DNA from: a virus
Length of the DNA stretch: 44,788 bases
Direction: 5' to 3' (one strand)
Virus record (IMG/VR): IMGVR_UViG_3300009605_006683
Span: 1 to 44,788 of that record
Under the pieces are notes generated by a model that saw only the letters and a list, made by a program, of their open reading frames with translations, had not been told where the DNA came from and ran no database searches. This document shows, piece after piece, positions 6,395-28,800 of the stretch (within the stretch, counting starts at the first letter, position 1; every line of letters starts with the position of its first letter). The position numbers and the translations under genes are program-made.

Positions 6395-8466
6395 TGAAAA
6401 AGGTTTTAGTCAAAGGGCCCGTCTTTTCAAGATCCGGGTATGGTGAGCAAACAAGATTTGCTCTTAGATCTTTAGCACAGTATCCCGAAAGATTTGATAT
6501 TTTTATAGAAAATATTAGGTGGGGAAATACAGGTTGGATCTTTGACGATGACAGTGAACGAATATGGCTGGACAATCTTGCTAAAAAGTCTATTACATAT
6601 GGAAAACACGTAAATAATTATGATATATCAATTCAGGTCACCATTCCGCAAGAATGGCAAAAAATAGCACCTATTAATATTGGCTACACAGCTGGTACTG
6701 AAACGACAAAAATTTCTTCACAATGGGTTCAAGCTTCGAACTTTATGGATAAAATTATTGTACCATCAAGCCATTCTAAATTTGCATTTGACAACACAGT
6801 ACATCAAGTAATGAATGAGGCAACGAGAGAACCGGTAAGTATAAAATGTCAGACACCGGTAGAAGTTGTTAATTTTCCTGTAAAAGAGTGCGAACCGGAA
6901 GAAATAGACATTGACCTAGAACATGATTTTAATTTTTTGGTTGTTTCTCAGTGGAGTCCACGCAAGAATTTGAAGAATACGATTCGTTGGTTTATGGAAG
7001 AATTTAGAGATGATGAAGTTGGTTTGGTGTTGAAAATCAACTGTGCAAGTGATTGTACAATGGATAAGGCCCTTACTTTAAAAAAGATACAAAAATTCTC
7101 TAATGAATATAAAGACAGAAAATGTAAACTTTATGTTCTTCATGGAACAATGAAAGAGAGCGAGATGATAGGGCTGTATACTCATCCCAAAATAAAAGCA
7201 TTAATTAATATTTCACATGGCGAAGGCTTCGGACTCCCTGTTTTTGAGGCAGCACATAACAGCTTGCCAGTAGTTGCTTCTAATTGGGGCGGAGTAACTG
7301 ACTTTATGAACGCGCCAACGAAAGATAAAAAAGGGAAAATGAAAAAAAGGCCTCATTATGCAAGCGTTGAGTATGATATTAAGCCTATTCAACAAGATGC
7401 CGTTTGGGAACCAGTTTTAGTTAAGGATTCAATGTGGTGTTTTCCTAAAGAGGGTAGCTATAAAAAAACCATAAGAAGCGTGTATAAGAGTCATGGCCAA
7501 TATTTGAGTAAAGCTAAAAAGTTGGCACCACAATTGCGAGAAAGACTTTCGGAAACAAACCAGTTCAAGCTTTTCGCGGATCATGTATATGACGGAGAGG
7601 ATTTGAAAGATGTTGAATACATCTTTGTTAGTGACATGTTTGCTAGTGAGTTTCAAGGCGGAGCAGAGCTTAGTTTACAAACGTTGATTAATAGTTGTCC
7701 AGCTTCATCGGTGGCAATTAAAGCTAATGCGGTCAGTGAACATTTTCTTGATATATGGAAGGACAGTAAGTGGATTTTTGCAAATATGACAGCAATGCAC
7801 CCGGAAGTTGTTAGCCTGCTAAAAGAAAAAGAAATTGTGTATTCTTTCGTTGAGTACGACTATAAGATGTGTAAACACAGAAATCCGGCATTGTATGAGT
7901 TTGTGGAAGGTGAAGCTTGTGATTATGCTAAAACTGGGTTGGCAACCGTGATTAAAGATTTCATGATGAACGCCCAATCAGTTTTCTTTATGGCTAAAAA
8001 ACAAAGGGATATTTATACTGAGCATTTTCCGGAATTAAAGGAAACGAACACTCATATCTTATCTTCACTTTTCGAAGAACAACATTTAGACTATATTCAA
8101 AAATTAAGAAACAAACATTATGATAAGGGAAGATGGCTTGTACTTAATTCAAACAGTTGGGTTAAAGGCGTCGCCGCATCTGAAAAATGGTGTAAGGACA
8201 ATAAAGTTGAATATGACTTGGTTGGAGATCTAAGCTATGATCAGTTTTTGAAACAATTAAGAGTTTCGAAGGGAGTGTGCTTCAAACCAGATGGCTTAGA
8301 CACATGTCCTAGGTTTATTATCGAGGCTAAGCTTCTTGGTTGTGAACTAGAGTTAAATGACAAGGTACAGCATGCCGGCGAAGAATGGTTTAATTTAAAT
8401 GCCGAAGATATGGTAAAATATCTGAAGTCTAGAAAAGATTATTTTTGGCAAAAAGCATTTAACTGA
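6394..8466 (+). CDS. Two-domain glycosyltransferase fusion (GT-B + second GT-like half)
   Basis: At 690 residues this is far longer than a single GT-B enzyme (about 350-420). Residues 1-400 form a GT4-like unit with SPRKNLKN in the hinge and an intact EX7E motif, Glu277 and Glu285 in EGFGLPVFE. From about residue 406 a second Rossmann-like unit begins (IFVSDMF, GGAEL), and it ends with a degenerate sugar-binding segment near 640 (PRFIIEAKLLG) that keeps only one Glu of the motif. The protein may add two sugars in succession, or the second half may be a binding domain. The fusion frame is continuous with no stop or shift. It overlaps neighbours by 1 base on each side. Confidence 0.8.
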   Translation: MKKVLVKGPVFSRSGYGEQTRFALRSLAQYPERFDIFIENIRWGNTGWIFDDDSERIWLDNLAKKSITYGKHVNNYDISIQVTIPQEWQKIAPINIGYTAGTETTKISSQWVQASNFMDKIIVPSSHSKFAFDNTVHQVMNEATREPVSIKCQTPVEVVNFPVKECEPEEIDIDLEHDFNFLVVSQWSPRKNLKNTIRWFMEEFRDDEVGLVLKINCASDCTMDKALTLKKIQKFSNEYKDRKCKLYVLHGTMKESEMIGLYTHPKIKALINISHGEGFGLPVFEAAHNSLPVVASNWGGVTDFMNAPTKDKKGKMKKRPHYASVEYDIKPIQQDAVWEPVLVKDSMWCFPKEGSYKKTIRSVYKSHGQYLSKAKKLAPQLRERLSETNQFKLFADHVYDGEDLKDVEYIFVSDMFASEFQGGAELSLQTLINSCPASSVAIKANAVSEHFLDIWKDSKWIFANMTAMHPEVVSLLKEKEIVYSFVEYDYKMCKHRNPALYEFVEGEACDYAKTGLATVIKDFMMNAQSVFFMAKKQRDIYTEHFPELKETNTHILSSLFEEQHLDYIQKLRNKHYDKGRWLVLNSNSWVKGVAASEKWCKDNKVEYDLVGDLSYDQFLKQLRVSKGVCFKPDGLDTCPRFIIEAKLLGCELELNDKVQHAGEEWFNLNAEDMVKYLKSRKDYFWQKAFN

Positions 8467-9215
8467 TGAAAAACCATTTTACGATTGTCGTTCCTGCTTA
8501 CAATGTAGAGCAGTGGGCAGAGAAAAATATAAAATCAGCCCTTACACAAGATTACGACAATTATGACGTTATATATATAAATGATGCGTCTACAGACGAG
8601 ACTAGAAAAATTGTAGACTCAACTTTTCAAAATTTGGTTAAAGAGACGAATGCCGACTCTAAAGTCATGCACAACGAGAGTAACAAAAAGGCTCTTTACA
8701 ATATTATAACTGCTGTTAAATTAGCTCGCCCAAATAGTATCATTGTAACGTTAGATGGCGACGACAGGCTGCCACATAAAAATGTCTTAAGTTCGTTAGA
8801 TGAAACTTATTCATCATCTAATGTGTGGATGACAGCCGGCTCGTATGTTGATTCTTTGACTGGTCTTATTGGAAATCCACAAGTCGACGAATATTTTTGG
8901 CAAGGAAATATAAGGCATAAAGAATGGGCTTTTTCACATCTTAGAACGTTTCGTAAAGAACTGTTTTTGAAAATCGATGAAGCAGATATGACAGATAAAG
9001 ATGGAGAAATCTACAAGTATACCTTCGATCAAGTTATGATGTTTCCGATGGCAGAAATGTCCGGACCAGAACATTGTGTATTTATAAAAGAGCCTTTATA
9101 TGTTTACAATAGAGATAACCCAATATCAGTTGATAGAGTTCACCGAATAGACCAATTAAGGATCGAACAAACGATTAGAAATAAGAAACCTTATTCAAGA
9201 TTAGAGGCACTATGA
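8466..9215 (+). CDS. Family 2 glycosyltransferase (GT-A)
   Basis: This 249-residue protein has the GT2 opening FTIVVPAYNVE, then INDASTDET and a DGDD motif at 97-100 that binds metal and nucleotide sugar. Length matches a single GT-A domain with no membrane anchor. It should be an inverting transferase acting in the cytoplasm. The start overlaps the previous stop (TGATG), and the next gene starts 4 bases before its own stop. Confidence 0.85.
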   Translation: MKNHFTIVVPAYNVEQWAEKNIKSALTQDYDNYDVIYINDASTDETRKIVDSTFQNLVKETNADSKVMHNESNKKALYNIITAVKLARPNSIIVTLDGDDRLPHKNVLSSLDETYSSSNVWMTAGSYVDSLTGLIGNPQVDEYFWQGNIRHKEWAFSHLRTFRKELFLKIDEADMTDKDGEIYKYTFDQVMMFPMAEMSGPEHCVFIKEPLYVYNRDNPISVDRVHRIDQLRIEQTIRNKKPYSRLEAL

Positions 9216-10420
9216 ATAAGAAAAAATTAATTATATTTGCTCCGACGCCTGTTTATGGCGCTGGCATAAATTTAGTAGAAGCTATTAATATGTATTCTGA
9301 AAAGTATGTTGCCGAAGGCTGGTATATAGATAAATCTACTTATCCTTTTTATAGTGAGAAACAAAAAAAGGATTGGAAGCATGTAATTGGCTCTTTCGAG
9401 AATTTAAGTTATGTGCGCAAAGTACTAGAAAAGCCAGATGTATATTTTTTTGGGATATCTGGTAGAGCTGTTGAAATGCTTTTAAATTTATATAAATTTT
9501 ATGTTTGTTTACCTCCATCGCCACTTGCTCATGATGAAATAGAAATTTTTGATAGTTTTGCATACAATGGAGAAACTTCAAACAAGACCCTCAAACTTGA
9601 AAGACATCAATTGCTTGAAATTGGCATCGGCGCATCTACAGCTGGTTGTTTCCCTTCTATTATAGAACTTCTTCGTCTCGTATTCCCTAATGTATCCAAT
9701 ACACAGGCACTAAGCATGCTCCACAATCTTCTGGGTCATAAAAAACTTAATGAAAGGCTAGCCTTTTGGTGGACAGATTCACTGTATAGAAAAGATTTTG
9801 AGAACTATAATAAGATTACAGAGTTGTACAATATACAGACATTTGCAATGTTAGATTTGTTGAGGCTAAGTGAAAAGTCTTTACCATTGATGCAAACATA
9901 TAATATTGATGCAAAGGAAGAAAAATATAAAGACTTTACGGTTATACACACGCCAGGACATAGAGAATCGAATAAAAAAGGTACTGATGTAGTTAAAAAA
10001 GTTGCAAAAAAACTTCAGGACATTAAGTTCAATATATATGGAAAAAACAGCTTCGTACCAAATGAACAGTTAGTTAGTGAAAAAGTGAAATCTCATGTCT
10101 GCGTAGATAAAATAACAAAAGATGCGATGCTTGGTACCAATGGCGTTGCTGGTGGCCCCGGGAAATCTGCTTTAGAATCAATTTACGCAGGCATACCAAC
10201 CATTTGTTCGATGCAAGAAACGCTAAATGAAAGAGCCGGTAGATATAAAGATATACCAATTATTGATGTTAGAAATGAAGAAGATCTTGAGAAAGAACTC
10301 ATAAAACTAAGCACTGATAAAAAATATTATAATGAGATATCAAACAAAGTAGAAGAGTGGGCTAAAGTTCTAACTTATGAGAACACTGTAAAATATTTAG
10401 ATGAAAATTTATATAAATGA
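9212..10420 (+). CDS. GT-B-like glycosyltransferase, tandem paralogue 1
   Basis: This 402-residue protein and the next one are clear paralogues. The C-terminal third has the look of a GT-B donor domain: an HTPG segment, then GPGKSALESIYAGIPTI, where a Glu sits in the usual place. The exact family is not recognised, and no complete EX7E motif is present. The two copies are close at both ends, including their opening codons and the segment EWAKVLTYE, but diverge in residues about 75-190. That pattern fits the same donor with different acceptors. Its stop overlaps the ATG of its twin. Confidence 0.65.
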   Translation: MNKKKLIIFAPTPVYGAGINLVEAINMYSEKYVAEGWYIDKSTYPFYSEKQKKDWKHVIGSFENLSYVRKVLEKPDVYFFGISGRAVEMLLNLYKFYVCLPPSPLAHDEIEIFDSFAYNGETSNKTLKLERHQLLEIGIGASTAGCFPSIIELLRLVFPNVSNTQALSMLHNLLGHKKLNERLAFWWTDSLYRKDFENYNKITELYNIQTFAMLDLLRLSEKSLPLMQTYNIDAKEEKYKDFTVIHTPGHRESNKKGTDVVKKVAKKLQDIKFNIYGKNSFVPNEQLVSEKVKSHVCVDKITKDAMLGTNGVAGGPGKSALESIYAGIPTICSMQETLNERAGRYKDIPIIDVRNEEDLEKELIKLSTDKKYYNEISNKVEEWAKVLTYENTVKYLDENLYK

Positions 10421-11637
10421 ACAAGAAAAAATTAATTATATTTACGCCTAATCCTTTTTATGCAACGGCGACAAATTTTGTAGACGCTATAAATTTATAT
10501 TCTAAAAGATTTACCGCCCATGGAGTTTATGTTGAAGAAAGTCCTTATGACCGTCTAAGCGAAGAGCAGAAAAAAGATTGGACAAATTTATACAGTTCAG
10601 CTGAGTTTATTGATCATTTGCTAGAGCTATATCAAGACTCAAACAGTCATTTTTTAGGAATTTCAACTCGATCCGTTGAGATATTTTTTCAACTTTTTTT
10701 ACTTCACCATGGGCTTCATGATATTGATTCAACAGTGAAGATTTCCTTCGATACCTTGTCGACTCCGGAAGAGGGTAAAAAAGAAAATAGTTTAGATATA
10801 CCTAAATCCTTTTTTACGCGTCTTTGTTTCGCTGGACGTCAAAAAGGTCTTTTTGGAAAAACAGAAAATTTAGATAATAATAACACCTTTTTAGCTATGG
10901 CTCTTTCTCAAGTGACTATGTCATATGCGAGTCAATTCTTAGACAACTATTTGAGGCATAAAGACTTTTGTAAAAGGCTTGCATTTTGGTGGTGTGGTTC
11001 GCCATATAGACAAAGGCCTGATAGTTATAACGCCTTGACAGATCAACACAATATACAAACCTTTGCTCATCTAGATTTACTAAGGCTGAATGAAAAATCC
11101 TTACCATTAGCGTTCGTGTATGATTTCGATTTATCTGAAGATAAGTATGAAAATTTTACTGCCATACACACTCCGGGCCTTCAGATGTTTAAAGGAACTG
11201 ACATAGTTAAAGAAGTTGCAAATAATCTTTCGGATATTAAATTTGATATATATGAAGGGCATAATTTTTTACCAGGTAAACAAGTGATTCTTGAAAGAGC
11301 GAAATCTCACGTCTGTATAGATAAGATAACAGAGAATAGTATACTCGGACTTTCAGGCGCCATGGGCGGCATTGGTATGTCTGGCTGCGAAGCAATTTAT
11401 ACTGGAACTCCAACGATTTGTTCAATGCAAGAAACAGCAAACGAACGTTTAGGTCGATATAAAAATATACCTGCTATTGACATCAGAACTGCGTCTGAGC
11501 TTGAAGAGGAACTTAAAAAGCTAAGCACTAATAAAGAATATTATAAAGAGATATCAAGTAAAACAAAAGAATGGGCAAAAGTTCTAACTTATGAAAGTAC
11601 CGTTAAATATCTAGACGAGGTGCTGTACAATGGATAA
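10417..11637 (+). CDS. GT-B-like glycosyltransferase, tandem paralogue 2
   Basis: This 406-residue protein is the second member of the tandem pair. Shared landmarks with its twin include KKLIIF at the start, LAFWW near the middle, HNIQTFA, SLPL, SHVCIDKIT, PTICSMQET and GRYK. The donor-side segment is SGCEAIYTGTPTI. The region between about residues 85 and 175 aligns poorly with the twin and carries the length change. The function is inferred only from fold and context. It overlaps the following methyltransferase gene by 8 bases. Confidence 0.65.
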   Translation: MNKKKLIIFTPNPFYATATNFVDAINLYSKRFTAHGVYVEESPYDRLSEEQKKDWTNLYSSAEFIDHLLELYQDSNSHFLGISTRSVEIFFQLFLLHHGLHDIDSTVKISFDTLSTPEEGKKENSLDIPKSFFTRLCFAGRQKGLFGKTENLDNNNTFLAMALSQVTMSYASQFLDNYLRHKDFCKRLAFWWCGSPYRQRPDSYNALTDQHNIQTFAHLDLLRLNEKSLPLAFVYDFDLSEDKYENFTAIHTPGLQMFKGTDIVKEVANNLSDIKFDIYEGHNFLPGKQVILERAKSHVCIDKITENSILGLSGAMGGIGMSGCEAIYTGTPTICSMQETANERLGRYKNIPAIDIRTASELEEELKKLSTNKEYYKEISSKTKEWAKVLTYESTVKYLDEVLYNG

Positions 11638-12247
11638 AAACTACTGCATAAAAGAAGGGTATATTTCTAGAAAAGAATATAACCAAAATGTACAAATTGA
11701 ATCAGGTGATCAGTTTCAAGACGAAGTATATCAAAGAGCTAGGCAAATATTAGATGAACACAAATATAAAAAAGTGCTTGACATCGGCTGTGGTTCGAGC
11801 TTTAAGCTAATTAAATATTTTAGAGACAGGCCTTTTGTTGGACTGGATCTTGAACCTAATCTTTCATGGTTAAAGGAAACATATCCTTATTTTGATTATA
11901 GACTTTCAGATTATAACAATCCTCTCAAAGATGAATTTGATTTGGTTATTTGTTCCGATGTTATTGAGCATGTGCTAGACCCGGACCTAATGATTGACTT
12001 TATCAACAATATAAATTTTAAGCAGTTGGTGATTTCTACTCCGGAACGTGATATAATACAACGGGTACAAAGGGAAATGAACTGGGATGTTAAAGAAAGC
12101 GGCCCTCCTGCAAATATATGCCATGTGAGAGAATGGACAAAGGACGAGTTTGCAGAATATATTTCTCAGACTTTTGATATCGAAGAACATTATATAACCC
12201 CAATTCAAATAGAATGTCAAGTAATTGTGGCGACTAAGAAAAAATGA
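11630..12247 (+). CDS. Class I SAM-dependent methyltransferase
   Basis: This 205-residue protein has SAM motif I VLDIGCGSS near residue 46, an acidic loop after the second strand (GLDLEPN), and VICSDVIEHV near residue 105, the standard order of a class I methyltransferase. It resembles sugar or lipid-type small-molecule methyltransferases rather than DNA methylases: there is no DPPY/NPPY motif. Within this glycan block a sugar O- or N-methylation is likely. It overlaps its neighbours by 8 and 4 bases. Confidence 0.82.
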   Translation: MDKNYCIKEGYISRKEYNQNVQIESGDQFQDEVYQRARQILDEHKYKKVLDIGCGSSFKLIKYFRDRPFVGLDLEPNLSWLKETYPYFDYRLSDYNNPLKDEFDLVICSDVIEHVLDPDLMIDFINNINFKQLVISTPERDIIQRVQREMNWDVKESGPPANICHVREWTKDEFAEYISQTFDIEEHYITPIQIECQVIVATKKK

Positions 12248-13161
12248 ATATATTTTTAGACAATGTAGCAATTGGCTCAAGCACAGGTCCAAATCATTTT
12301 GGCACAAAACTATTAAAATATCTCAAAAAGCAAGGACATAGGTGTTATACAATTCCAATTCCGCCACCAGAAATACAACTTTCGTTTATCGAAGCTAACT
12401 CTAATAATTTAAGTGTACCTGTTGTACAAAGATTGGATGGAATTTATTTCGATAGAACTAAAGATCACACATTGCAGAATACAAATATTTTGGACACCTA
12501 TAGAAAAGCTAGTGGTGTGATATTCCAGTCAGAGTATAGCAAGAAGTTAGTATTTAAATACTTTGGAGAACATGCAGATTACGAAATAATTCACAACGGC
12601 GCCGACTTGGAATTGATGGATGAAGTTGACCCGGCAAACAATAAAGAACTAGAAGATTATGAGAATGTTTGGTGCTGTGCATCGAACTGGCGCGGCTGGA
12701 AAAGGATGCCTGACAATATTAGATATTTTTTAGAGTTTTCTGGCAACAAGGACTGCCTTATAGTTGCCGGTATGCCAAAGCCATGGGAAATGGTAGAACA
12801 TGATAGAATATTTTATTTAGGGCAGGTGAGCCCTCTTTCCTTGTTTTCGTATATGAAGGCGTCTAAACATTTTATACATCTTGCAAGGTATGATGCGTGC
12901 CCCAATGTTGTTGTGGACGCAAGAGCAGCCGGCTGTAATATAATATGTTGTTCAGAGGGCGGCACAAAAGAGATTGCAGGTCCGGATGCTACAATAGTTG
13001 TAGAAGAACCATGGAATTTTGAACCTGTTGACGTCGACCATCCACCAAGATTAAAGTTTGATAATATTACGAGCAACAATTTTGATTCTGACATCGATAT
13101 GAACAATGTGGCCGAAAGATATGCAAATTTTTTAAAAAATATGAAGGAGAGTGAAGAATAA
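12244..13161 (+). CDS. GT-B glycosyltransferase (GT4-like, short)
   Basis: This 305-residue protein has a GT-B pattern: FGTKLLKYLKKQGH in the N-terminal acceptor domain, IIHNGAD at the interdomain junction, CASNWRGWKR where GT4 enzymes contact the donor phosphate, and a C-terminal HLARYDACPNVVVDARAAG. In the last segment the two Glu of EX7E appear as Asp, so either the motif is altered or the family is distant. It is short for a GT-B enzyme. Its stop overlaps the next ATG by one base. Confidence 0.75.
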   Translation: MNIFLDNVAIGSSTGPNHFGTKLLKYLKKQGHRCYTIPIPPPEIQLSFIEANSNNLSVPVVQRLDGIYFDRTKDHTLQNTNILDTYRKASGVIFQSEYSKKLVFKYFGEHADYEIIHNGADLELMDEVDPANNKELEDYENVWCCASNWRGWKRMPDNIRYFLEFSGNKDCLIVAGMPKPWEMVEHDRIFYLGQVSPLSLFSYMKASKHFIHLARYDACPNVVVDARAAGCNIICCSEGGTKEIAGPDATIVVEEPWNFEPVDVDHPPRLKFDNITSNNFDSDIDMNNVAERYANFLKNMKESEE

Positions 13162-14006
13162 TGCTAGTAAAACAATACGTAGGCAATTTTTTGATGAATT
13201 TGGATCTAGCAGATAACGGCATATCTCAGACCCTATATAGCGTAGGAGGAAGAGAAAAGGCCTTTATGGGCATATTAGAAGACACTGTGAAGGAGGGTAT
13301 GGTTTGCCTTGATTTGGGCGCTAACATTGGCTATACGACGCTTTACATGCTAAACAACGTTGGAGAAGAGGGATTTGTGTATGCAATTGAACCTGGAAAA
13401 CATAACTTGGAATTACTGCAGCAGAACGTTGAGCTAAATAATTATGAAGATACGTGTGAAATTGTAGAAGGGGTTATATCATCTGAAGATGGAGTACTGG
13501 ACTTTTGGTTGGCAGACGCGCCAAACTTGCATAGTTTTATAAAAACCAATAGGAGCACGAGTAAGGTTAATGTAGAAGCGTATACACTGGAAACGTTTTT
13601 GAAAAACAGGAAATTTCCAAACTTTATTAAAATGGATGTCGAAGGGCATGAAGTCGATATCTTTAAGGGCGGCCTGAACTATTTTAAGAATAACCCTGGA
13701 CCCACAAACATATTGATAGAAGTGCATCCGTCACTATATAACGAAGAAAATGATTTTGCAGAAATACTAAAAGAATACTTTGCCATTGGCTTTAGACCTA
13801 AATATGTTGTGACCACTCCTGTACCACAACCAAAATTGTTTAAGGAGGCTGGTTATGAGCCAATCAAATCTGTACAAACAGATGGCTTTCATAGAGGTGT
13901 TTATGAAAATATTTCTGAAGAACATCTTTTAGAATTTGCGTGCAAGGAGAATGCTGAAGGCAACAGTAAAAAGATAGTCAGAAGCTTTATGATAACGAGA
14001 GATTAA
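13161..14006 (+). CDS. FkbM-family methyltransferase
   Basis: This 281-residue protein has the FkbM landmarks: CLDLGANIGYTTL near residue 49 (SAM-binding), AIEPGKHNLELL, and the diagnostic FIKMDVEGHE near residue 157 followed by LIEVHP. FkbM enzymes O-methylate sugars and small molecules and are common in polysaccharide and flagellin or virion glycan clusters. It lies next to a second, more divergent FkbM-like gene, only one base away. Confidence 0.87.
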   Translation: MLVKQYVGNFLMNLDLADNGISQTLYSVGGREKAFMGILEDTVKEGMVCLDLGANIGYTTLYMLNNVGEEGFVYAIEPGKHNLELLQQNVELNNYEDTCEIVEGVISSEDGVLDFWLADAPNLHSFIKTNRSTSKVNVEAYTLETFLKNRKFPNFIKMDVEGHEVDIFKGGLNYFKNNPGPTNILIEVHPSLYNEENDFAEILKEYFAIGFRPKYVVTTPVPQPKLFKEAGYEPIKSVQTDGFHRGVYENISEEHLLEFACKENAEGNSKKIVRSFMITRD

Positions 14007-14007
14007 A

Positions 14008-14949
14008 ATGAAAGAACAAATTAAAATAAATTACTTTGACTTAGGTCTTCACACTGCTAATGAGCTTTTTAGGACATGTGAGCTTTTGGATGATAATTAT
14101 TCCGGTTGGAGAGCTTATGGGTTTGAGGCCTGTGGTCTATATCATGATTTTTGCGAAGAGAGATTTAAAGGGAACACACATGTAAAGATTATACATGGCG
14201 CGATATCAAATACCGAAGAAGACATTAAACTTCATTACGCAAATAACGCACTTGGACATTCCATTTTTGAATCTAAAAATGAAGAGGTGACAGATACTTT
14301 TGTTGCCACTAGTGGAAGCATAGACGTCGATGCACTATCTACACTGCCTTCCACTAGTTTGCCTATGATGTTTAATCATTGCTTTGTAAATGGTGATTTT
14401 AGTAAAGTTACACCGGGACTTTCATTAGAAAAGATATATTCTTGGGTCAAAAAATACTCTGAGGAATTTCAAGCCGGGATCCCAATTGGCTTTACTGAAG
14501 GTAATAAAATTTCATATATCGATGCAACAAACGTCCCCATATGGTTTCAGGGCGGAGGACTCATAGCGAGACGAGACAAGACCCTCAACCCGGTACCACA
14601 GTATGAATACACAAAAGGAATAATATTTTCAAAATGGCTTAAGGAAAATATACCAGATTTTGAGAGTAGTTTTAATATACTGAGGGTTAATATAGAAGGC
14701 GCCGAGGTACATTTATTTGAAGACCTAATCAACAGTGATCTGATAAAACATTTTGATATATTTTGTGGCACGGGCAACGATGTAGAAAAAATCTCAGAAC
14801 ATTCTGCAGATAAATATTACAAAATGCTAGATGATAATGAAATAAAAATGTATAGATTTACAGATTGGAAACCAGAATTAAATGACATGATAGGAGACAT
14901 TATAATAGAGAAGGTTAAAGAGTGGAAAACAAAAAATGTACTTTCCTGA
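14008..14949 (+). CDS. Divergent FkbM-like methyltransferase with internal insertion
   Basis: This 313-residue protein starts with YFDLGLHTANE, a degenerate version of the FkbM SAM motif (normally DxGANxG), then AYGFEACG, and near residue 230 has LRVNIEGAEVHLF, which matches the family's KxDIEGAE segment. About 100 residues between the two parts (roughly 105-215) have no counterpart in the neighbouring FkbM gene and look like an insertion. It may methylate a different position or may have lost activity. It overlaps the sialyltransferase-like gene by 14 bases. Confidence 0.68.
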   Translation: MKEQIKINYFDLGLHTANELFRTCELLDDNYSGWRAYGFEACGLYHDFCEERFKGNTHVKIIHGAISNTEEDIKLHYANNALGHSIFESKNEEVTDTFVATSGSIDVDALSTLPSTSLPMMFNHCFVNGDFSKVTPGLSLEKIYSWVKKYSEEFQAGIPIGFTEGNKISYIDATNVPIWFQGGGLIARRDKTLNPVPQYEYTKGIIFSKWLKENIPDFESSFNILRVNIEGAEVHLFEDLINSDLIKHFDIFCGTGNDVEKISEHSADKYYKMLDDNEIKMYRFTDWKPELNDMIGDIIIEKVKEWKTKNVLS

Positions 14950-15634
14950 AAATTTAGACAACTTCGGCGTAATTCTAAAGGGCTCAAGTATTAAACATAT
15001 ATGTGATTATACTGATAAGTTTGACCACTGTTTTATGGTTAACAACTTTGATAGGAACACCGACAATAAAAATTCTGAATGGGAGACTGTATCACCACAC
15101 TTAAAGGGAAAAGAAATTGTTCACTTTGTCAATAGATTAACAACTGCTCCGTTATTGAGAGAGCATTATGAAGAACTGAATATCAAACATGTTCAATTTC
15201 CTAAAACCGCAATGGACGATGCTTTAAGAATTGTAAGACCCTATTACGAGGATTGTGGTTTGAAGTGCCATCTTTTACCGGAAGAGGCTTTAAAATATAA
15301 TGATTTCTTTGATGATAAATATTACCTGAAACCTGGCGACTCAAATTACAGAGCAAAGCATCCAAATACGGGAGTCCTGGCCATAATTTATGCAGCAGGA
15401 TTGTTAAAGGCAAAGAACGTATGGATAATTGGATTAGACTTTTATCAAAGCGATTATCTGTACAGAAGACCATGGCAAACGCCGATAGAAAACCAGCAGT
15501 TGAAAATGAAAAATACAGACATGATTGGACACTTTATTGACATAACCAAGAGAACGCCAGATGTCAATTTTCATTTAGTTACAAAAGCTTCGAACATCCC
15601 AGAAACAGGCAACTTGCAAGTTTTTAAGGTCTGA
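14936..15634 (+). CDS. GT42-like sialyltransferase candidate
   Basis: This 232-residue protein fits the Campylobacter CstII type of sialyltransferase by motif and length (family about 250-290). The visible parallels are: an N-terminal GxSIK turn at 16-20; VNNFD at 35-39 in the place of the nucleotide-contacting CNQF; then NTGVLA at 144-149 and IIGLDFYQSDYLY at 164-176, close to CstII's SGVYMC and LSGIDFYQ; and IGH at 197-199, where CstII has IGH in its catalytic region. It lies directly upstream of two NeuB-like genes and a CMP-sugar synthetase domain, which would supply the CMP-nonulosonate donor. A DUF115/MptE-like protein is the main alternative. Confidence 0.68.
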   Translation: MYFPENLDNFGVILKGSSIKHICDYTDKFDHCFMVNNFDRNTDNKNSEWETVSPHLKGKEIVHFVNRLTTAPLLREHYEELNIKHVQFPKTAMDDALRIVRPYYEDCGLKCHLLPEEALKYNDFFDDKYYLKPGDSNYRAKHPNTGVLAIIYAAGLLKAKNVWIIGLDFYQSDYLYRRPWQTPIENQQLKMKNTDMIGHFIDITKRTPDVNFHLVTKASNIPETGNLQVFKV

Positions 15635-15653
15635 ACGATTAAAAGGTGCACAT

Positions 15654-16340
15654 ATGAAAATAATATCAGAAATTGGAATAAACCATAATGGTGACTTTCG
15701 CAAGATTGAAGAATTAGTTCGACAATCAAAGATTGGGGGAGCAGATTATGCAAAGTTTCAACTTTATAATTCTGTAAGAGTGTTTGGCGATGAGTCTAGA
15801 AAGCAAAATGAATTCACGTTTAAGCAGGTACGTCAAATAAAAGACATATGCGATAATTATGGAATTACTTTTTTTGCATCAGTCTTTGATGAGGAAAAAC
15901 TAGAATGGTGTGAAAAGCTAAACGTTGGCTTGTACAAGGTTGCAAGTAGAACGGTTGTCAAGGAACCCAAATTATGTGAGCAGATTATCACAACTAAGAA
16001 GCCGGTTTATATATCTTTAGGCTTTTGGGAGGAAGAGGGACTGCCGTTTGAGGGAAATAATATTAAATACTTAAACTGTATTTCAAAGTACCCAACAAGC
16101 GCTTTGGACTTTAAAAATTTTGAGTATGATGGTAAAATTGTTGGGCTAAGCGATCACTCTTATGGAATTTCTTACGCATTGTATAATATTGCACACGGAG
16201 CAAGAGTAATAGAAAAACACTTTACCCTCAACAAGGGCATGGGTGGAAATGATCATATTGGCTCTATGACTTTAGAAGAACTTAAACTGTTGAGAGAATA
16301 TGGAGATCAGATTGAAGGCATTAAACATAATATCGAGTGA
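15654..16340 (+). CDS. neuB: NeuB-like nonulosonate synthase, barrel only
   Basis: This 228-residue protein shows the NeuB barrel in order: SEIGINHNGD at the start, AKFQL, FFASVFD, YKVASR, GLSDH with His168, and IEKHFTL with His189. The two His are 21 residues apart, as are the metal-binding His215 and His236 of meningococcal NeuB. It should condense an N-acyl hexosamine with phosphoenolpyruvate to a nine-carbon sialic-type acid. It is about 110 residues shorter than typical NeuB because the C-terminal SAF (antifreeze-like) domain is missing; the stop is clean. In known NeuB dimers that domain covers the partner's active site, so this copy may need the fused paralogue next door. AAAGGTG precedes the ATG. 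Confidence 0.88.
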   Translation: MKIISEIGINHNGDFRKIEELVRQSKIGGADYAKFQLYNSVRVFGDESRKQNEFTFKQVRQIKDICDNYGITFFASVFDEEKLEWCEKLNVGLYKVASRTVVKEPKLCEQIITTKKPVYISLGFWEEEGLPFEGNNIKYLNCISKYPTSALDFKNFEYDGKIVGLSDHSYGISYALYNIAHGARVIEKHFTLNKGMGGNDHIGSMTLEELKLLREYGDQIEGIKHNIE

Positions 16341-18109
16341 TGACTAAACCACCATACATAATTGCAGAAATTGCGAACGCGGCCCAAGGAGATTATCAAG
16401 CTAATTTTGAATTAATTCAGAATGCAAAAGATTCAGGCGTTCCAGCAGTTAAATTTCAGTTCTACAAGTACGACGTTTTGACAACGCCAGCTTATAGTAA
16501 ATATGAAATATACGAACAAACATTTTATACTGCTGAACAAAGGTCGGAATTTGTTAAGTTTGCAAAAGAACTAGAACTAGATGTTTGGGTTGATGTGTTT
16601 GATAGTTGGGGTTTAGGCGTAGTAAAGGACAATATTGAACATGTTGATGGTATTAAGATACCCCCTACTGTCTCTTTGAACCACAAGCTAGTTAATGATA
16701 TCTTATCTCTTGAAGCGGATATACCTATACTTTTAGGCGTTGGAGGTTTAAATGATCGCCAGGTTGATAGAGCCGTACAACAAGTAAAGGGCTCGAATAA
16801 AAAAATTATACTAATGTATGGTTACCAAGGATTTCCAACCAATGAAAAAGATACAGCATTATCTAGGATCGGATACCTGAAGCAAAAATATGGATATGAT
16901 ATTGGTTTCGCAGATCATGTTGACGCTGAATCGGATTTGAGTATCAAAATGCCTTGTTACGCTTATTTTGCCGGGGCCAGTATACTTGAAAAACACATAA
17001 CACTGGATCGAGCAGCTAAAGGTTATGATTATTATTCCTCTTTAGAACTCGGCGAATATAAAGAAATGGTAAAAGAGCTGGAAAGGTGCAGTGGTATAGC
17101 TGGAATTCCAAATAATATAACACAGGACCAGGAGAAATATATGTCACATGCGGTTCGTGCAGTGGTATCTTGTGACAAGAATGAGGGAGATTTAATTTTC
17201 GAAAATGATGTTGATTTCAAAAGGACGGGAAACCAAACAGATTTGTTGCCAAATGAAATCGAATCGATGTTGCCGGCAAAAGCAACAAAAGAATTAAAAA
17301 TCAATTGCGGTATTAACATAAACTCAATAACAAAAGCAAGAACAGGTATAATTGTTTTATGCCGCCTCAATTCAACTAGATTGTCAAAAAAGGCTCTTCT
17401 AAAACTAGCAGGCAAAACTACGATCCAGAGATGTCTAAATAACTGCTTGAAAAGTGAAATGGCAAACGAAGTTGTATTAGCAACATCTACAGATCCAAAT
17501 GATAGCCCTTTAGAAACTCAGCTTATCAACGGTGTGAAATACTTTAAAGGAGATCCAGATAATCCAGCAAGAAGGATATTACAGGTTGCAGAACAATATG
17601 ATCTAGATTTTATTGTACGCGTAACAGGCGACAGTCCATTAATATCTTATGAATTGATCGATCAACTGATATCTTCTCATTTAGCTTCTGGTGCAGATTA
17701 TTCTTATATTGGAAATGCTCCATTGGGTACACGATCAGAAATATTTAACACCAAAGCTATCAAGAAATTATTTAACAGCTTAGAGACTGAAAAGTACAGT
17801 GAGTACTTGACTTTGTATTTTAAGAACAATCCGAACTTTTTCAAAATAAACAAGTTAGAATTATCAGATGAAAATATATTAAAATACAAAGATGCCAGAT
17901 TTACACTTGATTACGAAGAAGATTATAATTTTTTGAGTTCAATTTTTAACAAATTGGGCAGTAAAGAGTATACTAAACTATCTGAATTGCTTGATGTATT
18001 GGACGCGAATTCACAGCTGTTGAACATAAATTCTCATATAATTCCAAAATACGTCAAAAACAAAGAACTAGCTGAAGAGCTTGACAGAGTGACGAAAATT
18101 AATAGGTAG
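16340..18109 (+). CDS. NeuB-SAF-SpsF fusion: nonulosonate synthase plus cytidylyltransferase
   Basis: I take ATG 16340, overlapping the previous stop as TGATG; a GTG one codon earlier is possible. Of 589 residues, about 1-265 form a NeuB/SpsE barrel (AEIANAAQGD, VKFQFYK, ADH with His193, LEKHITL with His219). About 270-330 form a SAF domain (RAVVSCDKNEGDLI). From residue 335 an SpsF-type cytidylyltransferase follows: IIVLCRLNSTRLSKKALLKL, VVLATSTDP, then RVTGDSPLI, matching the family's RxTGDCPL. The fusion would make a nonulosonic acid and activate it with CTP in one polypeptide. SpsF enzymes act on sialic-like and other sugars, so the exact product is open. It is linked to the transferase candidate two genes upstream. 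Confidence 0.87.
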   Translation: MTKPPYIIAEIANAAQGDYQANFELIQNAKDSGVPAVKFQFYKYDVLTTPAYSKYEIYEQTFYTAEQRSEFVKFAKELELDVWVDVFDSWGLGVVKDNIEHVDGIKIPPTVSLNHKLVNDILSLEADIPILLGVGGLNDRQVDRAVQQVKGSNKKIILMYGYQGFPTNEKDTALSRIGYLKQKYGYDIGFADHVDAESDLSIKMPCYAYFAGASILEKHITLDRAAKGYDYYSSLELGEYKEMVKELERCSGIAGIPNNITQDQEKYMSHAVRAVVSCDKNEGDLIFENDVDFKRTGNQTDLLPNEIESMLPAKATKELKINCGININSITKARTGIIVLCRLNSTRLSKKALLKLAGKTTIQRCLNNCLKSEMANEVVLATSTDPNDSPLETQLINGVKYFKGDPDNPARRILQVAEQYDLDFIVRVTGDSPLISYELIDQLISSHLASGADYSYIGNAPLGTRSEIFNTKAIKKLFNSLETEKYSEYLTLYFKNNPNFFKINKLELSDENILKYKDARFTLDYEEDYNFLSSIFNKLGSKEYTKLSELLDVLDANSQLLNINSHIIPKYVKNKELAEELDRVTKINR

Positions 18110-18112
18110 AAT

Positions 18113-19024
18113 ATGCGAATAAAACTTGATTGTCCAGTTGATTTTGTGTCTATAGGTGAACTAAACCAGTTATTTCGCAAACACGATTATACCCTAGGAA
18201 ATTTAGATGCGGATTGTGTCATTGTAAATCCTGGAACAAATAAGTATCTAGGGCCTGAATATTTTAATCAGTTTCCTTTTTTAAAAGTTGTTGGCACACC
18301 TTCAACAGGGATTAATCATATCGACGTTGAATATCTTGCGCAAAATGGTGTTTCTGTAAAGTGTTTATTAGACGATAGAGAATCCTTAGATGATATTCAC
18401 GCCTCCGCTGAATTTACATGGCTTCACATAATGAACGCTGTTAGAAAATTTGGCTTAGCCGTTAACAACAAAAAAAACTGGCGAGAAAAGAACAATGAGG
18501 CATTTTTAAGATCTAATGAAATGCACGGTAAGAAACTAGGCATTGTTGGGATGGGCAGGATTGGAAAAAAGCTCGCGAACTATGCTAAAACCTTTGGAAT
18601 GCAAGTATTCTGGTACGATCCGTATGTTAATGACGACGAAACAAATAATAAAGTTAATAATTTAAATGACTTGAAAGATTGTGATATACTTTCAATTAAC
18701 TGTTACTTAACTGATGAAACTAAAGAGTTAATAACTTACGGAACTTTAGATGATTTTAAGACGGGCTTAATAGTTGTTAACACATCGCGAGGAGAAGTGA
18801 TTAACGAAGATTATATTTATGACTTGATTGTGAATGAGGAAATCAAGTATTCAGCTGATGTTCTTTGTAATGAGCAAAATACGCACTTGCTTCACAAATC
18901 TAAGCTTTTTAACTTAGAGCACGATGGTATCACAATTACTCCACATGTTGCAGGAGCTACAGTAGAAAGCCAGTTTAAAGCGCTTAAAGCGATATTAGAA
19001 TTGTGTAAAAGATGTATAAAATAA
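18113..19024 (+). CDS. D-isomer-specific 2-hydroxyacid dehydrogenase
   Basis: This 303-residue protein resembles phosphoglycerate dehydrogenase. Visible are the nucleotide-binding GIVGMGRIGKKLA near residue 143, NTSRGEV near residue 224 with the catalytic Arg, a Glu in the NEQN stretch, and TPHVAGAT near 286 with the catalytic His. It lacks the C-terminal regulatory ACT domain of many SerA proteins. In a sugar cluster such an enzyme may provide a keto- or hydroxy-acid for acylating an amino sugar; this is inference. It overlaps the following glycosyltransferase by 13 bases. Confidence 0.88.
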   Translation: MRIKLDCPVDFVSIGELNQLFRKHDYTLGNLDADCVIVNPGTNKYLGPEYFNQFPFLKVVGTPSTGINHIDVEYLAQNGVSVKCLLDDRESLDDIHASAEFTWLHIMNAVRKFGLAVNNKKNWREKNNEAFLRSNEMHGKKLGIVGMGRIGKKLANYAKTFGMQVFWYDPYVNDDETNNKVNNLNDLKDCDILSINCYLTDETKELITYGTLDDFKTGLIVVNTSRGEVINEDYIYDLIVNEEIKYSADVLCNEQNTHLLHKSKLFNLEHDGITITPHVAGATVESQFKALKAILELCKRCIK

Positions 19025-19692
19025 CAGTTGGTATATGTTGCTATGAACAAAAAAAGTGGCTTTATCGTTGCTTAAGGAGTCTGTCCAAACAGACAATTTC
19101 GAAGGACGAGTTCGAAGTTATTATCGTGAATGATGATCCAGAAGAACAATTAGAAGAAGTTTGTAAACCCTTAGAAGATTATTTGAATATAAGATTAATA
19201 AACAACACCGAGAATATAGGACTACCAGGATCGTTAAACACAGTCCTTAAAAATTCTCTAGGCAAGTACTTTGTCAGGATAGACTCAGACGATTATGTGT
19301 CGAAGCATTTCTTATATATGCTTTCTACTTTTCTTGATATGAATTCCGGGCCAAGAGTAATGGGCGATGGTCAAAGTTATCAAGCTGCTGCGTGTGATTA
19401 TTTCAAGGTCGACAATGCAGGAAATATTTTAAGTCGGCATATGTCTTCAACAGAACCCATCGCTTGTGGTATAATGTTTACATATGAATCTTTGTGTAGC
19501 ATAGGTTTTTATAATGAAGATTTTAAGATGCGCGAAGGGCATGAACTTTTGACGAGATACAAAGAGAACTACAATTTATATAATTTGTTGATGCCTTTAT
19601 ACAAATATAGAATGCATGGCGATAATAGGACCAATAACAAAAAAGAAGTAGAGAGATACGATAATAGATTGGCGGAGGTAAATAATGGCTAG
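19012..19692 (+). CDS. Family 2 glycosyltransferase (GT-A)
   Basis: This 226-residue protein opens with ITVGICCYEQKKWLYRCLRSLSKQ, continues with VIIVNDDPEE, and carries the DSDD metal motif at 91-94 in RIDSDDYV. This is the standard GT2 nucleotide-binding half, with a short acceptor half. No membrane segment is present. It should transfer one sugar from a nucleotide donor. Gene overlaps on both sides (13 and 8 bases) place it in the same transcript as the dehydrogenase and epimerase. Confidence 0.86.
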   Translation: MYKITVGICCYEQKKWLYRCLRSLSKQTISKDEFEVIIVNDDPEEQLEEVCKPLEDYLNIRLINNTENIGLPGSLNTVLKNSLGKYFVRIDSDDYVSKHFLYMLSTFLDMNSGPRVMGDGQSYQAAACDYFKVDNAGNILSRHMSSTEPIACGIMFTYESLCSIGFYNEDFKMREGHELLTRYKENYNLYNLLMPLYKYRMHGDNRTNNKKEVERYDNRLAEVNNG

Positions 19693-20548
19693 ATGTTTAG
19701 TAACTGGTCACAAAGGCTATATTGGCAGTCGATTGTACGCCGAGTTAACAAAACAAGGACACGATGTTGTTGGCGTCGATATGAAAGACTCACCTGACGA
19801 TGATATCTTGTTCCCGGACTGCCTTGAGGATCTTACCTCTTTCTCTCCGGAGTATATTTTTCACTTAGCATGCATTCCGAGAGTTGCATATAGTGTCGAA
19901 AACCCAGTATCGACAATGCAAAATAATGTTATGGCCGGCAGCGTTGTATTAAACTTTGCCAGACAAGTGAAAGCAAAACGCGTTATATATTCAAGCTCTT
20001 CCTCAGTTGTTGGTAATGGCGATGGGCCAACTAGTCCGTATGGTTTACAGAAGTTGGTTACAGAGATGGAGTGCAAATTATATGCAGATCTTTATGGCGT
20101 CGATACTGTCAGTTTAAGGTACTTTAATGTCTATTCAGAAGATCAAACCGTTGATGGCCCTTATGCAACAGCCGTTGCAAATTGGATGAAATATATTCGT
20201 GAAGGAGAAGTTCCATTTATCACCGGAGATGGAGAACAGAGAAGAGACATGTTATATGTTCACGACGCAGTCGCTGCAAATGTCTTCTGTATGGAATATA
20301 GCGATGAATTTAACGGCGCCCATTACGATGTTGGCACCGGAACAAATATATCATTAAATGAGATGAAAGGAATAGCAAGAGAATACCATCCGGATGTATC
20401 GTTTGAATATAGGTCACCACGACCAGGTGATGTTTTATATACTAAGGCCGACACAAAGCCGTTGGCCGAATTAGGTTGGCGAGTGAAGGTTAAATTAAGT
20501 GAAGGTCTGAACCGGTGTTTCAAAGGAATAAAAAATGACAAAATATAA
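19685..20548 (+). CDS. NAD-dependent sugar epimerase/dehydratase (extended SDR)
   Basis: This 287-residue protein has the Rossmann motif GHKGYIG at 8-14, SSSSSV in the active-site strand, the catalytic YxxxK as Tyr119 and Lys123 in SPYGLQK, and RYFNVY. This is the pattern of UDP-glucose 4-epimerase and related nucleotide-sugar epimerases, at slightly under the usual 310-340 residues. The substrate cannot be read from the sequence. Adjacent to a UDP-sugar dehydrogenase-like gene, it may interconvert UDP-hexoses or uronic acids. Confidence 0.88.
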   Translation: MARCLVTGHKGYIGSRLYAELTKQGHDVVGVDMKDSPDDDILFPDCLEDLTSFSPEYIFHLACIPRVAYSVENPVSTMQNNVMAGSVVLNFARQVKAKRVIYSSSSSVVGNGDGPTSPYGLQKLVTEMECKLYADLYGVDTVSLRYFNVYSEDQTVDGPYATAVANWMKYIREGEVPFITGDGEQRRDMLYVHDAVAANVFCMEYSDEFNGAHYDVGTGTNISLNEMKGIAREYHPDVSFEYRSPRPGDVLYTKADTKPLAELGWRVKVKLSEGLNRCFKGIKNDKI

Positions 20549-21383
20549 TGTTGGTATTATTGGCAATGGCTTTGTTGGCCAAGCTTTGGCTTATGGTTTT
20601 AGCCCTGTGGCCAAAATTCGAATTTATGATCTGGACCCTTTAAAGTGTGTCGATGAATTTAAAGAAACGGTAAACAGATCCGATATACTTTTTGTGTCTG
20701 TGCCCACGCCCATGAACCCGGATGGCTCAATAAATTTAGATATCATCAACGATGTTATTACAAAGATTGATGAGGCGAACATAAGAAAAGACAACGTAGT
20801 GGTTTTGAAATCGACTGTTGTCCCGGGAACAACTGATTATTTAACAGAGTTGTTTCCGTCTCTTAATTTTGTATACAATCCAGAATTCTTAACAGAGAGA
20901 AAAGCCAAGTTTGATTTTTTGAATCAATCTAGGGTCGTTTTAGGCGGAGACTTCAAGTCAGTACAGAAAGTCGTCGGTCTTTATATAAACCGGTTTAATC
21001 ATTGCAATTTCGTAAAAACGGATTGTAGGACAGCAGAATTTATAAAATATTTAGGAAACGTGTTCTTTGCTTTGAAAGTTTCTTTCGCTAACGAGACGAG
21101 ACTTTTTGCCGAAGAAATAGGAGTTAACTGGGATGATGCATTGCGCGGCTTCGTTGCCGATGGCCGCGTCGCAGACTCTCATCTACATGTACCAGGTCCG
21201 GATGGGAAATTGGGCTTCGGAGGGAGTTGTCTTCCTAAAGATTTAAATGCTTTCATAGCTTTAGCTGATAGTGTTGGAATTAGTCTAAATACGCTTAAAG
21301 CTGCATGGCAAACCAATCTAGAAATTCGTCCGGAAAAAGATTGGGAAAAACTTAAAGGACGAGCAGTAATAAAGGAGAATTAA
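20535..21383 (+). CDS. UDP-glucose/GDP-mannose dehydrogenase family, shortened
   Basis: This 282-residue protein has GIIGNGFVGQAL at the start (NAD-binding), SVPTPMNPDGS, KSTVVPGTT, YNPEFLTER, and the catalytic cysteine Cys232 in GFGGSCLPKD. Family members are about 390-450 residues. This one ends soon after the central helix domain and lacks the C-terminal nucleotide-sugar domain. The stop is followed two bases later by the next ATG, so there is no sign of a recent frameshift. It may bind substrate differently, act with a partner, or oxidise a smaller substrate. It is the last sugar gene of the block. Confidence 0.86.
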   Translation: MTKYNVGIIGNGFVGQALAYGFSPVAKIRIYDLDPLKCVDEFKETVNRSDILFVSVPTPMNPDGSINLDIINDVITKIDEANIRKDNVVVLKSTVVPGTTDYLTELFPSLNFVYNPEFLTERKAKFDFLNQSRVVLGGDFKSVQKVVGLYINRFNHCNFVKTDCRTAEFIKYLGNVFFALKVSFANETRLFAEEIGVNWDDALRGFVADGRVADSHLHVPGPDGKLGFGGSCLPKDLNAFIALADSVGISLNTLKAAWQTNLEIRPEKDWEKLKGRAVIKEN

Positions 21384-25841: not shown

Positions 25842-25852
25842 GGATTATATTG

Positions 25853-28800
25853 ATGGCAGGTGACTGGAAAAATAAGATACCAAATGAACCATATGTCGAT
25901 TCGAACGGAAGATTTTCAGTTGTATTGATGCACGAATGGCCTTTAGAGACTAAGTCGACTATGGAACAATATAATGAAATGAAGACCTGGTCTTTCCTTT
26001 TAAGTGTTGCAAAGGAAGGCTTTCAACGTTTGATGCAAAAATATGGTAGAGAGTATTACCAAAATACATGGGCAAATGTTACTGCAGCGTCATTAAAAAT
26101 AAATGTTGCCATAAAATATGCATCAGTTTTTGACCCGGCGAAAGCGTTTGGCAGCCTGGCCCGGGCCCGTTTTGCCCATATAGGAATAAGCGCGGGCGAT
26201 TATGTATTAGCCAAACGAGGATGGGATTTAGAGGGTCCGTATTTTCCTCCACGACCTGGAGTTGGGTATGGGCTTTATAAGCTTTCTATTCATCCTCGCA
26301 ATTTCGAAAAGTTTGGACCCATGACTTATGAGAATCGAACGACGGCAATAATGTCGAAGGGCGAAGAATATTATAAGGAAATAGAATTTGACAGCTATGA
26401 AGATCTAGAGACGCAATTAGCAGAGGTTTCTGCAGTATTGACCGAGTATGAATCTGCCCACATAGATATGCAAACACAGGCAGCAGACAAGGACAACTCT
26501 CCACAAATATTTAAAGGCCCAGAAGTTGGCGATCCACCATGGCCAAACCCTGATATCCCTAGAACAGATCATTACGGGCTATTAAATTTGGTTGATGAGG
26601 CTGCACGATTAAATACACTTAGCGGAAAAATAAAAGATTTTCTAAACTTAAATAAAGTACATTTAAGTCGCGACAAAATTATAATTGGGCTTTATCCGAC
26701 TGAACCCAAATATAATCCGGCAATGTCAATTAATGATGCAGATGACTCACCAATATCTACGGCTCAAACTACCCCTGAAGAGAAAGTCGCAGCTGTTTCT
26801 CCTTCTGAATTTGGTACCGTTACAGAACCTCCACTCACGTCCTCGGGTACTAAATACGTAGATGCACATGGGCATGCTACATATTTCACTAATCGATATA
26901 AGGTTCAGCAAGGTGATACCTTATGGAAAATTACAAAATTTTATCTTGGCACAGGTGGCGTCCGCGCCCGCGAACTGATTGATGCAAATTGGTATCGTGG
27001 CCCAGACCTGCCGGCCGGAGAATTCGGCCCTAAGCTTTACGAACAACGCGGTTGGACATCGACGCAAAAACTCAGCAAACTCGAACAAGCCTTTGATCGG
27101 GCTAAACGGCTTAACCTTAGCTACGAACAGCCACCCGCGTCCTCCGGCTTCGACGAACCGAACTACGACCCAACCGAACTCGACCAATATATATCTGACA
27201 ATCAAGAACTTTGGGATCAGCTTGAAAAAGCCAGAAAACCACAAGTCGAACCTGGCGACATTTTGACAATCCCTCGATTTTGGATGACCGAGATTTTAAA
27301 AAAGAAAAATAAAGCTTCCGAACTTCTTGGCATGAAACCTACATGGGATAGCGTTGCCTGGGAAGATATGACAAAGGGTATGGATGAATATGATAAGTCT
27401 TCGGTTCTTATATATGAAATACAATCAACGCAGGCAAAGGAACCTCTTACGCCAGATGGTCCCCCGATATCAACAACTACTGCTGTAGATCCCACATGGG
27501 ATACCTACCATATGCATGCCGGAAATTCAGATTTAGGCCAGGGAAAAATTGCTTACTTTAAGTTACCGTCTCCGACATACTCTAAAGCTGCTAAACAATA
27601 TAAAACTGCTAAAGCAAATTTAAAAAGTGCACCACCTACCAATAAGACGTTGTTAGAGACTCGCTTCGCCAATGCGAAACTGCATTTAAAAGATATTGCT
27701 GTACAAGAGAAACCGTTTAAATGGTCAGGATTTTTAGATTTAGTTTATTCTAAGCCCGCGCAGATCCCGCGCACTCTACATTTTTTAACTAATTTAGATA
27801 TTGTTGTCAACGAACCGGGTGTTAAAGGAGCACTGCTTCGTTTCTGCAGCCCTAATCAGAAGCCACCTAAGAAAGCAAAGAAGATATCGGTTTTTGTTAA
27901 AAAGTATATTTATGATCCACCAAAAGCCACCGCGCATATACCTACTGGTGAAGAATCAGCACGTAGTTTATATGATGCTCGAGCCCGTGATCACCACACT
28001 CCTAGGACAGAAAAAGAGGCCAATGCGTGGAACACCATAGTTAAGAGCCCTTTGATGAAAACAGCTGTTGCTAGACGAAATCAAAAGTTTTCAGACCAGG
28101 CAGGCGACGCAGTTTTTACCTCCCTTCCGCGCAGCATTGACAAGATCAATACTTTAAGTGATGTACATAGGTATGTTCTTTCTCGCATGGACTTGCCAAC
28201 GCTAGCGGAAGAAGTGCTGAAATGCTTAGGGCTTTCGTTATCTTTGAACGATGTTATAGAAGCAATGTGTGATGGTTTTCTAAGGAAAATCGGAGCAGAT
28301 CCTGATAAAATCGATCAATTTTACGATTTGTTGATGTCAGGTGAATTCAACCTCAGTGTTGAGTCGATGGATAATCTTGAATTAATTGATACCGCACGCA
28401 TGGCGGCGGATATACAAAAGTTTGTTGCCGAAGGCGTAGCCGCCGGCGTAGATGATCCTTTTTATGCTGCAGTTATAAGACAAAATATTGATAATGCTTC
28501 TGGAAAAATGTTAATTTGCGAATTGATAATGTCGTCTATCTTTGCGCTGGCGGACATGTTAGCTAATTTAGAATCTGGTCCGGAGCATAAGGATGCGGTG
28601 CCTCCTGTAGGCCGCTGTAAAGTTCCTCCGAAATTATTTATGCCAAAAATGCCTTTTGGTATTCCATTCGGCGATATTTGGTACCCGATTCGTAAGAAAC
28701 TAGAACAAATGCTCTACAGTCTTCTAGAAGATTTGATCATGTGGCCAATTAAAGAGCTTTTAGAATCTTTAGCAGACGCCTGCGCAGAGGAACACCCAGA

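Follow-up and report, generated by a model that had tools for sequence, protein, structure and literature searches.

Introduction

The sps genes of Bacillus subtilis make cytidine monophosphate (CMP)-legionaminic acid (PMC7439481), and neuB/neuA reads have been seen in viromes free of contamination (Roux et al., 2013, PMC3877843). The glycosyltransferase families GT42 and GT29 are related to each other (PMC5811610), and the Maf/MptE domain resembles that of CstII, with Maf enzymes transferring nonulosonic acids (NulO) (PMC11339370). Here we analyze a viral contig, IMG/VR record IMGVR_UViG_3300009605_006683 (the window, i.e., the whole stretch of 44,788 bases), in which three consecutive genes encode a putative transferase of 232 amino acids (aa), a short NeuB-type synthase and a NeuB-SAF-SpsF fusion. 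Judged from sequence, these genes probably make up the final part of a nonulosonic acid pathway that is encoded by the phage and ends in transfer, a reading to which we assign a probability of about 0.72.

Like the bacterial PseI/PseF and B. subtilis SpsE/SpsF pairs, the window combines a NeuB-type synthase with an SpsF/PseF-type cytidylyltransferase. It differs from the bacterial pseudaminic/legionaminic acid (Pse/Leg) pathways in that it lacks the precursor dehydratase, aminotransferase and hydrolase, that NeuB, SAF and SpsF are fused and accompanied by an extra SAF-less NeuB, and that the genes are phage-borne. The virome data of Roux et al. (2013) consist of short reads only, whereas here we add genome context, gene pairing, a transferase family and residue checks. 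Virome neuB reads were thus already known; new here are a conserved cassette, a family of divergent transferases and an unusual fusion. The gene set is undescribed in the literature we found, a coverage that excludes subscription journals and preprints. When three NeuB queries were run against 50,697 phage records, they retrieved three of them, namely a single-cell virus, an uncultured phage of 484 kb and a short contig carrying the label Moritella viscosa, of which none can clearly be called cultured.

Results

Open reading frames (ORFs) were found at the three positions given in a sequence-only reading of the window (14936, 15654 and 16340), the fusion starting at 16337 (GTG) or 16340 (ATG) with its stop at 18109. 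That reading had joined the three genes into one route of synthesis, activation and transfer, a connection that is well supported by co-occurrence together with the residue checks described below. Scans by protein and by motif gave relatives of the 232-aa protein in 15 viral contigs, while profile and pattern scans of bacterial genomes, the latter with narrow patterns, found none; a bacterial donor is still conceivable. All 17 of the 17 records with a member of this GLDFY[QE] family carry NeuB, and all 17 likewise carry CTP_transf_3. The family extends to a 224-aa protein of the distant Marine virus AG-345-L05, which has 23% identity to the 232-aa protein (E=4e-6). The closest relatives have in common the gene order FkbM, transferase, NeuB/NeuA, 2-hydroxyacid dehydrogenase, GT2, SDR, nucleoside diphosphate (NDP)-sugar dehydrogenase and sigma factor, with the position of their PseF-like cytidylyltransferase occupied in the window by the NeuB-SAF-SpsF fusion.

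The association also appears in a sample chosen independently of NeuB and the transferase, namely a scan for the sigma gene. Members of the transferase superfamily occur in 5/17 sigma-linked loci with NulO genes versus 0/63 without (p=0.0003), and in 3/15 versus 0/63 when two previously known contigs are left out (p=0.006). Across the whole records of 50 NulO-negative sigma loci, NeuB is found in four and GT29 in one; in this lone GT29 record, NeuB lies about 2 kb from the GT29 gene. When viral contigs were scanned for NeuB, at least 599 stretches were returned, 522 of those listed encoding a relative. Among the 80 NeuB loci kept, a cytidylyltransferase is present in 70 and a transferase-superfamily member lies nearby in 24. 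Separate GT29/GT42 searches across NeuB loci covered samples of 50. In LR756508.1 (L184), a 484-kb uncultured phage that was held out of profile building, three PF00777 genes (down to 7.9e-32) flank NeuB at 7247-11322.

Recurrence of the gene set in independent contigs, together with strong purifying selection, excludes chance as the origin of the locus. Compared with one relative (L004), the transferase gene has a nonsynonymous rate (pN) of 0.08 and a synonymous rate (pS) of 0.70, and the NeuB gene has values of 0.07 and 0.71, a regime resembling that of the sigma factor in other pairs. We also rejected host or assembly contamination as the source of the genes, because they sit among phage genes and their synteny is common to independent contigs. 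Genes for PhoH, a late sigma factor-like protein and the baseplate proteins gp25 and gp6 identify the window as a fragment of a marine T4-like myovirus.

The 232-aa protein had been described as a GT42-like transferase with GLDFYQ, VNNFD and IGH motifs. All three motifs are present. G-D-F-Y and N36 do not vary even among distant relatives, whereas the histidine of IGH persists in the near clade only; one relative (L048) has a CstII-like GHS. Like the GT42 enzymes CstI and CstII (PF06002), the window protein has a TG...G-(I/L)-D-F-Y-Q...Tyr block, an N-terminal G-x-S and an Asn at the VNNF position; unlike them, its histidine is shifted and not universal, and it gives no PF06002 match at E≤10. 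Using hhalign, CstII, a comparison sequence that was checked in the PDB, scored higher against the 232-aa family than did 250 unrelated phage ORFs and 100 shuffles, with the matching core TG...GLDFYQ...Y spanning 39 columns only at a probability of 33%. Phage GT29-like proteins (PF00777) adjoin NeuB elsewhere, and a strict profile iteration, seeded with two phage proteins above the PF00777 cut-off, reached the 232-aa protein at E=2.8e-6 before inclusion. Profile-profile comparison of the 232-aa family with the GT29-like phage set gave a probability of 94%. The window protein itself differs from GT29 in having no PF00777 match, so that this tie runs through intermediates only. A more permissive iterative expansion (>100 matches) strayed into large proteins, and the strict iteration was used in its place. 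With the Maf/MptE-like flagellin transferases the protein would share the fold group that also includes CstII (PMC11339370) and soluble cytosolic nonulosonic transfer, a Maf feature; it differs from them as a single small domain with no PF01973 match at E≤10. One phage protein encoded next to NeuB scores above the CST-I cut-off and, below cut-off, also matches the MptE-like model. A second, GT29-like gene is found near the 232-aa-type transferase in four close relatives (L007:8084-8890, L009:2198-3034, L011:1260-2036 and L014:1947-2777); the window has none.

A first AlphaFold model of the 232-aa protein, based on four close sequences, was of low quality, and we set aside the TIM-barrel matches that it gave. 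A second model, based on 20 relatives, reached a predicted local distance difference test (pLDDT) score of 82. Comparison with GT42 structures by Foldseek, suggested earlier as a check, did not place CstII among the best 50 PDB matches listed, and none of these makes a convincing case for the GT-A variant fold of GT42. Against viral structures the best matches of this model are uncharacterised phage proteins, an MptE-like and a GT29 protein having template modelling (TM) scores of 0.41-0.44. Taken from sequence comparison, the 232-aa protein is a predicted member of the GT42/GT29/MptE-like superfamily, GT42 membership itself not being proven. Of the earlier description, a link to this superfamily is thus supported and GT42 membership is not, given the lack of a PF06002 match, the absence of CstII from the best 50 PDB matches and the histidine that is not universal.

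The two NeuB proteins were examined in the numbering of Neisseria meningitidis NeuB, whose phosphoenolpyruvate (PEP)-binding and metal roles we take to apply to the aligned residues. In the short NeuB, residues equivalent to E25, K53, Q55, K129, S132, S154, Y186, S213, H215, H236 and D247 are all retained. The NeuB barrel predicted at 15654 is thereby borne out, and the loss of PEP and metal residues from both NeuB proteins, which the sequence-only reading had named as counterevidence, does not apply to this copy. In the barrel of the fusion, the three PEP-phosphate serines are replaced (S132P, S154G and S213A), as is Y186 (Y186F); K53, Q55, K129, H215, H236 and D247 are kept. Among the aligned NeuB copies from phage loci, all three serines are lost only in the window fusion. 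Its SAF domain keeps an R314-equivalent arginine (KRTGN aligned with KRPGN), and both this arginine and the cytidine triphosphate (CTP) domain look intact on alignment. The domains proposed for the fusion are therefore present, and a simple second synthase is not what the serine positions, now P, G and A, describe. Over its SAF-SpsF half, the fusion shares 34% identity with a protein in a Priestia pse operon. No relative of the full-length fusion was found in the scan of viral contigs. Elsewhere, recurrent NeuB-SAF proteins of about 485-503 aa (L160:3294-4751, L187:4309-5820, L065:14455-15912 and L075:10247-11716) have a C-terminal part that is cupin-like by eye and are paired with a second NeuB copy.

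Table 1. Predicted genes of the nonulosonic acid cassette and its flanks in the window
Feature	Position	Strand	Evidence
Putative CMP-nonulosonate transferase, GT42/GT29/MptE-like superfamily, 232 aa	14936..15634	+	GT29-like profile link, CstII vs decoys, co-occurrence
SAF-less NeuB-type synthase, 228 aa	15654..16340	+	PF03102 1.5e-36; PDB 6ncs 1.3e-18; residue check
NeuB-SAF-SpsF fusion, 590 aa	16337..18109	+	PF03102 3.4e-31; PF02348 7.2e-30; PDB 6oew 1.2e-20; residue check
D-2-hydroxyacid dehydrogenase	18113..19024	+	PF02826 2.6e-38; position conserved in closest relatives
FkbM-family methyltransferase, directly upstream	13161..14006	+	PF05050 6.1e-24; kept in relatives
Weak FkbM-like protein, 313 aa, overlaps transferase gene	14008..14949	+	TIGR01444 3.6e-05, below family cut-off
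GT2 glycosyltransferase, conserved cassette member	19012..19692	+	PF00535 6.1e-22
NAD-dependent sugar epimerase/dehydratase (SDR)	19685..20548	+	PF01370 5.8e-45; conserved cassette position
Nucleotide-sugar dehydrogenase	20535..21383	+	PF03721 7.1e-23; PF00984 1.2e-20; conserved cassette position

Adjacent genes of the cassette overlap by a few bases at 14936/14949 and 16337/16340. The D-2-hydroxyacid dehydrogenase gene is syntenic with NeuB/NeuA in seven contigs (L003, L004, L005, L007, L009, L014 and L016) and occurs in 0/80 of the wider NeuB loci. The NDP-sugar dehydrogenase (282 aa) lacks the usual C-terminal domain, yet it is kept in relatives. In L004, a 694-aa nucleotidyltransferase-HAD-kinase-like protein and a transaldolase-like gene, both recognized by eye, lie between transferase and NeuB (9884-12668). 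Further away in the window are a trypsin-like peptidase gene (700-1506, minus strand) and an ORF with weak metallopeptidase-type matches below cut-off (3544-4308, plus strand).

Discussion

We propose that the SAF-less NeuB would condense PEP with a host-derived amino-sugar to give a 3-deoxy-2-ulosonic acid, which the SpsF domain of the fusion would activate with CTP. The 232-aa protein, a divergent GT42/GT29/MptE-like member, would then transfer the activated sugar, most likely in the cytosol, to either virion proteins or host glycan intermediates of the inner leaflet. Gene content, homology, residues, co-occurrence and selection are observed directly, and from them we infer catalysis, sugar identity, host precursor supply and acceptor.

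Several observations weigh against this pathway. Most records are fragments, and the 232-aa protein has zero matches in Pfam, NCBIfam, PHROGs and PDB sequences. Its proposed catalytic histidine (IGH, H199; H188 in CstII) is confined to the near clade, i.e., to about 10 of 20 alignment rows, and the second structural model resembles Rossmann-type proteins in the PDB at TM ~0.3, low-scoring matches that we counted neither for nor against a particular fold. The short NeuB ends after the barrel, with neither a SAF domain nor Arg314, and E134 is also lost; its substrate may therefore differ from N-acetylmannosamine (ManNAc). Finally, precursor enzymes of the NeuC or PseB/C/G/H type are absent among the scanned window proteins, in agreement with the earlier remark that no NeuC-type epimerase is visible.

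The acceptor divides the proposed pathway into two versions. Genes for lipid-carrier/initiating transferases, flippases and ligases (PF02397, PF01943 and PF04932) were detected in 0/17 records, several of them longer than 100 kb, with bacterial controls positive, and no transmembrane segment is predicted in the cassette enzymes. The apparent solubility of the enzymes and the failure to find any of these gene types mildly favour cytosolic transfer, e.g., onto virion proteins. Alternatively, the same enzymes could place the sugar on a host surface glycan and so block superinfection or re-adsorption, which we consider quite possible, if short of an even chance. CstII-type enzymes act on lipid-linked glycans, and many glycosyltransferases lie in the same region as the cassette. 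Modification of the host O-chain has, in addition, been suggested for pelagimyophage glycosyltransferases (PMC7029224). Against the host-surface version stand the missing phage flippase, ligase, initiating transferase and membrane segments, although host machinery could serve, and host lipid-linked intermediates may still be compatible acceptors. Two giant ORFs have no other Pfam match: 25850-34312 (2820 aa, with a LysM domain) and 38096-44788 (>2231 aa, open at the contig end). Both proteins, encoded in the structural region, are possible glycan acceptors.

A second alternative concerns the division of labour between the synthases. The fusion barrel may be a pseudo-synthase that lends its SAF and CTP domains to the SAF-less NeuB, the two forming one split, channelling CMP-nonulosonate synthase. 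In the NeuB homodimer the SAF domain of one subunit lies over the active site of the other, and the losses in the window are complementary, an intact PEP site without SAF in the short NeuB being matched by four substitutions alongside an R314 equivalent in the fusion. The two genes overlap, and pairs of SAF-less and SAF-bearing NeuB recur in phage loci. Sister phages, however, have the same short NeuB and a standalone cytidylyltransferase without any SAF protein, so SAF in trans is not required, and in other phage NeuB pairs both copies look active; we therefore regard a split synthase as unlikely. Two or three NeuB-like genes are found in about one third of phage NeuB loci (L022-L101), often with one copy SAF-less and lacking E134 and the other SAF-bearing with E134 and R314.

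As to the product, the cytidylyltransferases of sister phages match PseF. Because of these cytidylyltransferase relatives, the sugar is more likely of the pseudaminic/legionaminic type than N-acetylneuraminic acid (Neu5Ac), as far as homology can tell. The sialic-type nine-carbon acid suggested previously is accordingly upheld as a nonulosonic-type route; Neu5Ac is less likely given the PseF and pse-operon relatives, and nine carbons are only presumed. A different 3-deoxy-2-ulosonic acid, e.g., an octulosonic acid made by a NeuB-family enzyme of changed specificity, would fit a short NeuB without SAF and E134, the absence of amino-sugar precursor genes and a fusion CTP domain that also matches 3-deoxy-D-manno-octulosonate (KDO) cytidylyltransferases. 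We nevertheless consider it rather improbable, since PF03102, NeuB_NnaB and PseI are the best-matching profiles of the synthase ORFs, the sister enzymes match PseF and the associated transferases are sialyltransferase-like.

An MptE (DUF115) fold had been named as a finding that would refute a transferase role, but such a fold would not settle the matter, because Maf enzymes are themselves nonulosonic acid transferases and the Maf/MptE domain is similar to CstII. That the 232-aa protein is a non-transferase MptE-like fold, or degenerate and unconnected to sugar, as its lack of a curated family and the MptE-like phage protein among its structural matches might suggest, is doubtful in view of the complete NeuB/CTP co-occurrence, the conservation of GLDFY and N36, purifying selection and the GT29-like profile link.

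The gene set behind the phage-encoded pathway that we favour recurs as a cassette in many uncultured ocean phages, with its own putative activating enzyme and a predicted transferase family that curated databases miss. It is tempting to speculate, at long odds, that a split channelling synthase feeds phage-specific cytosolic transferases and that uncultured ocean phages use these to decorate the proteins of their virions with sialic-like sugars. If the sugar goes onto virions or host surfaces, the cassette would have a bearing on phage adsorption, superinfection and marine sialic-acid chemistry.

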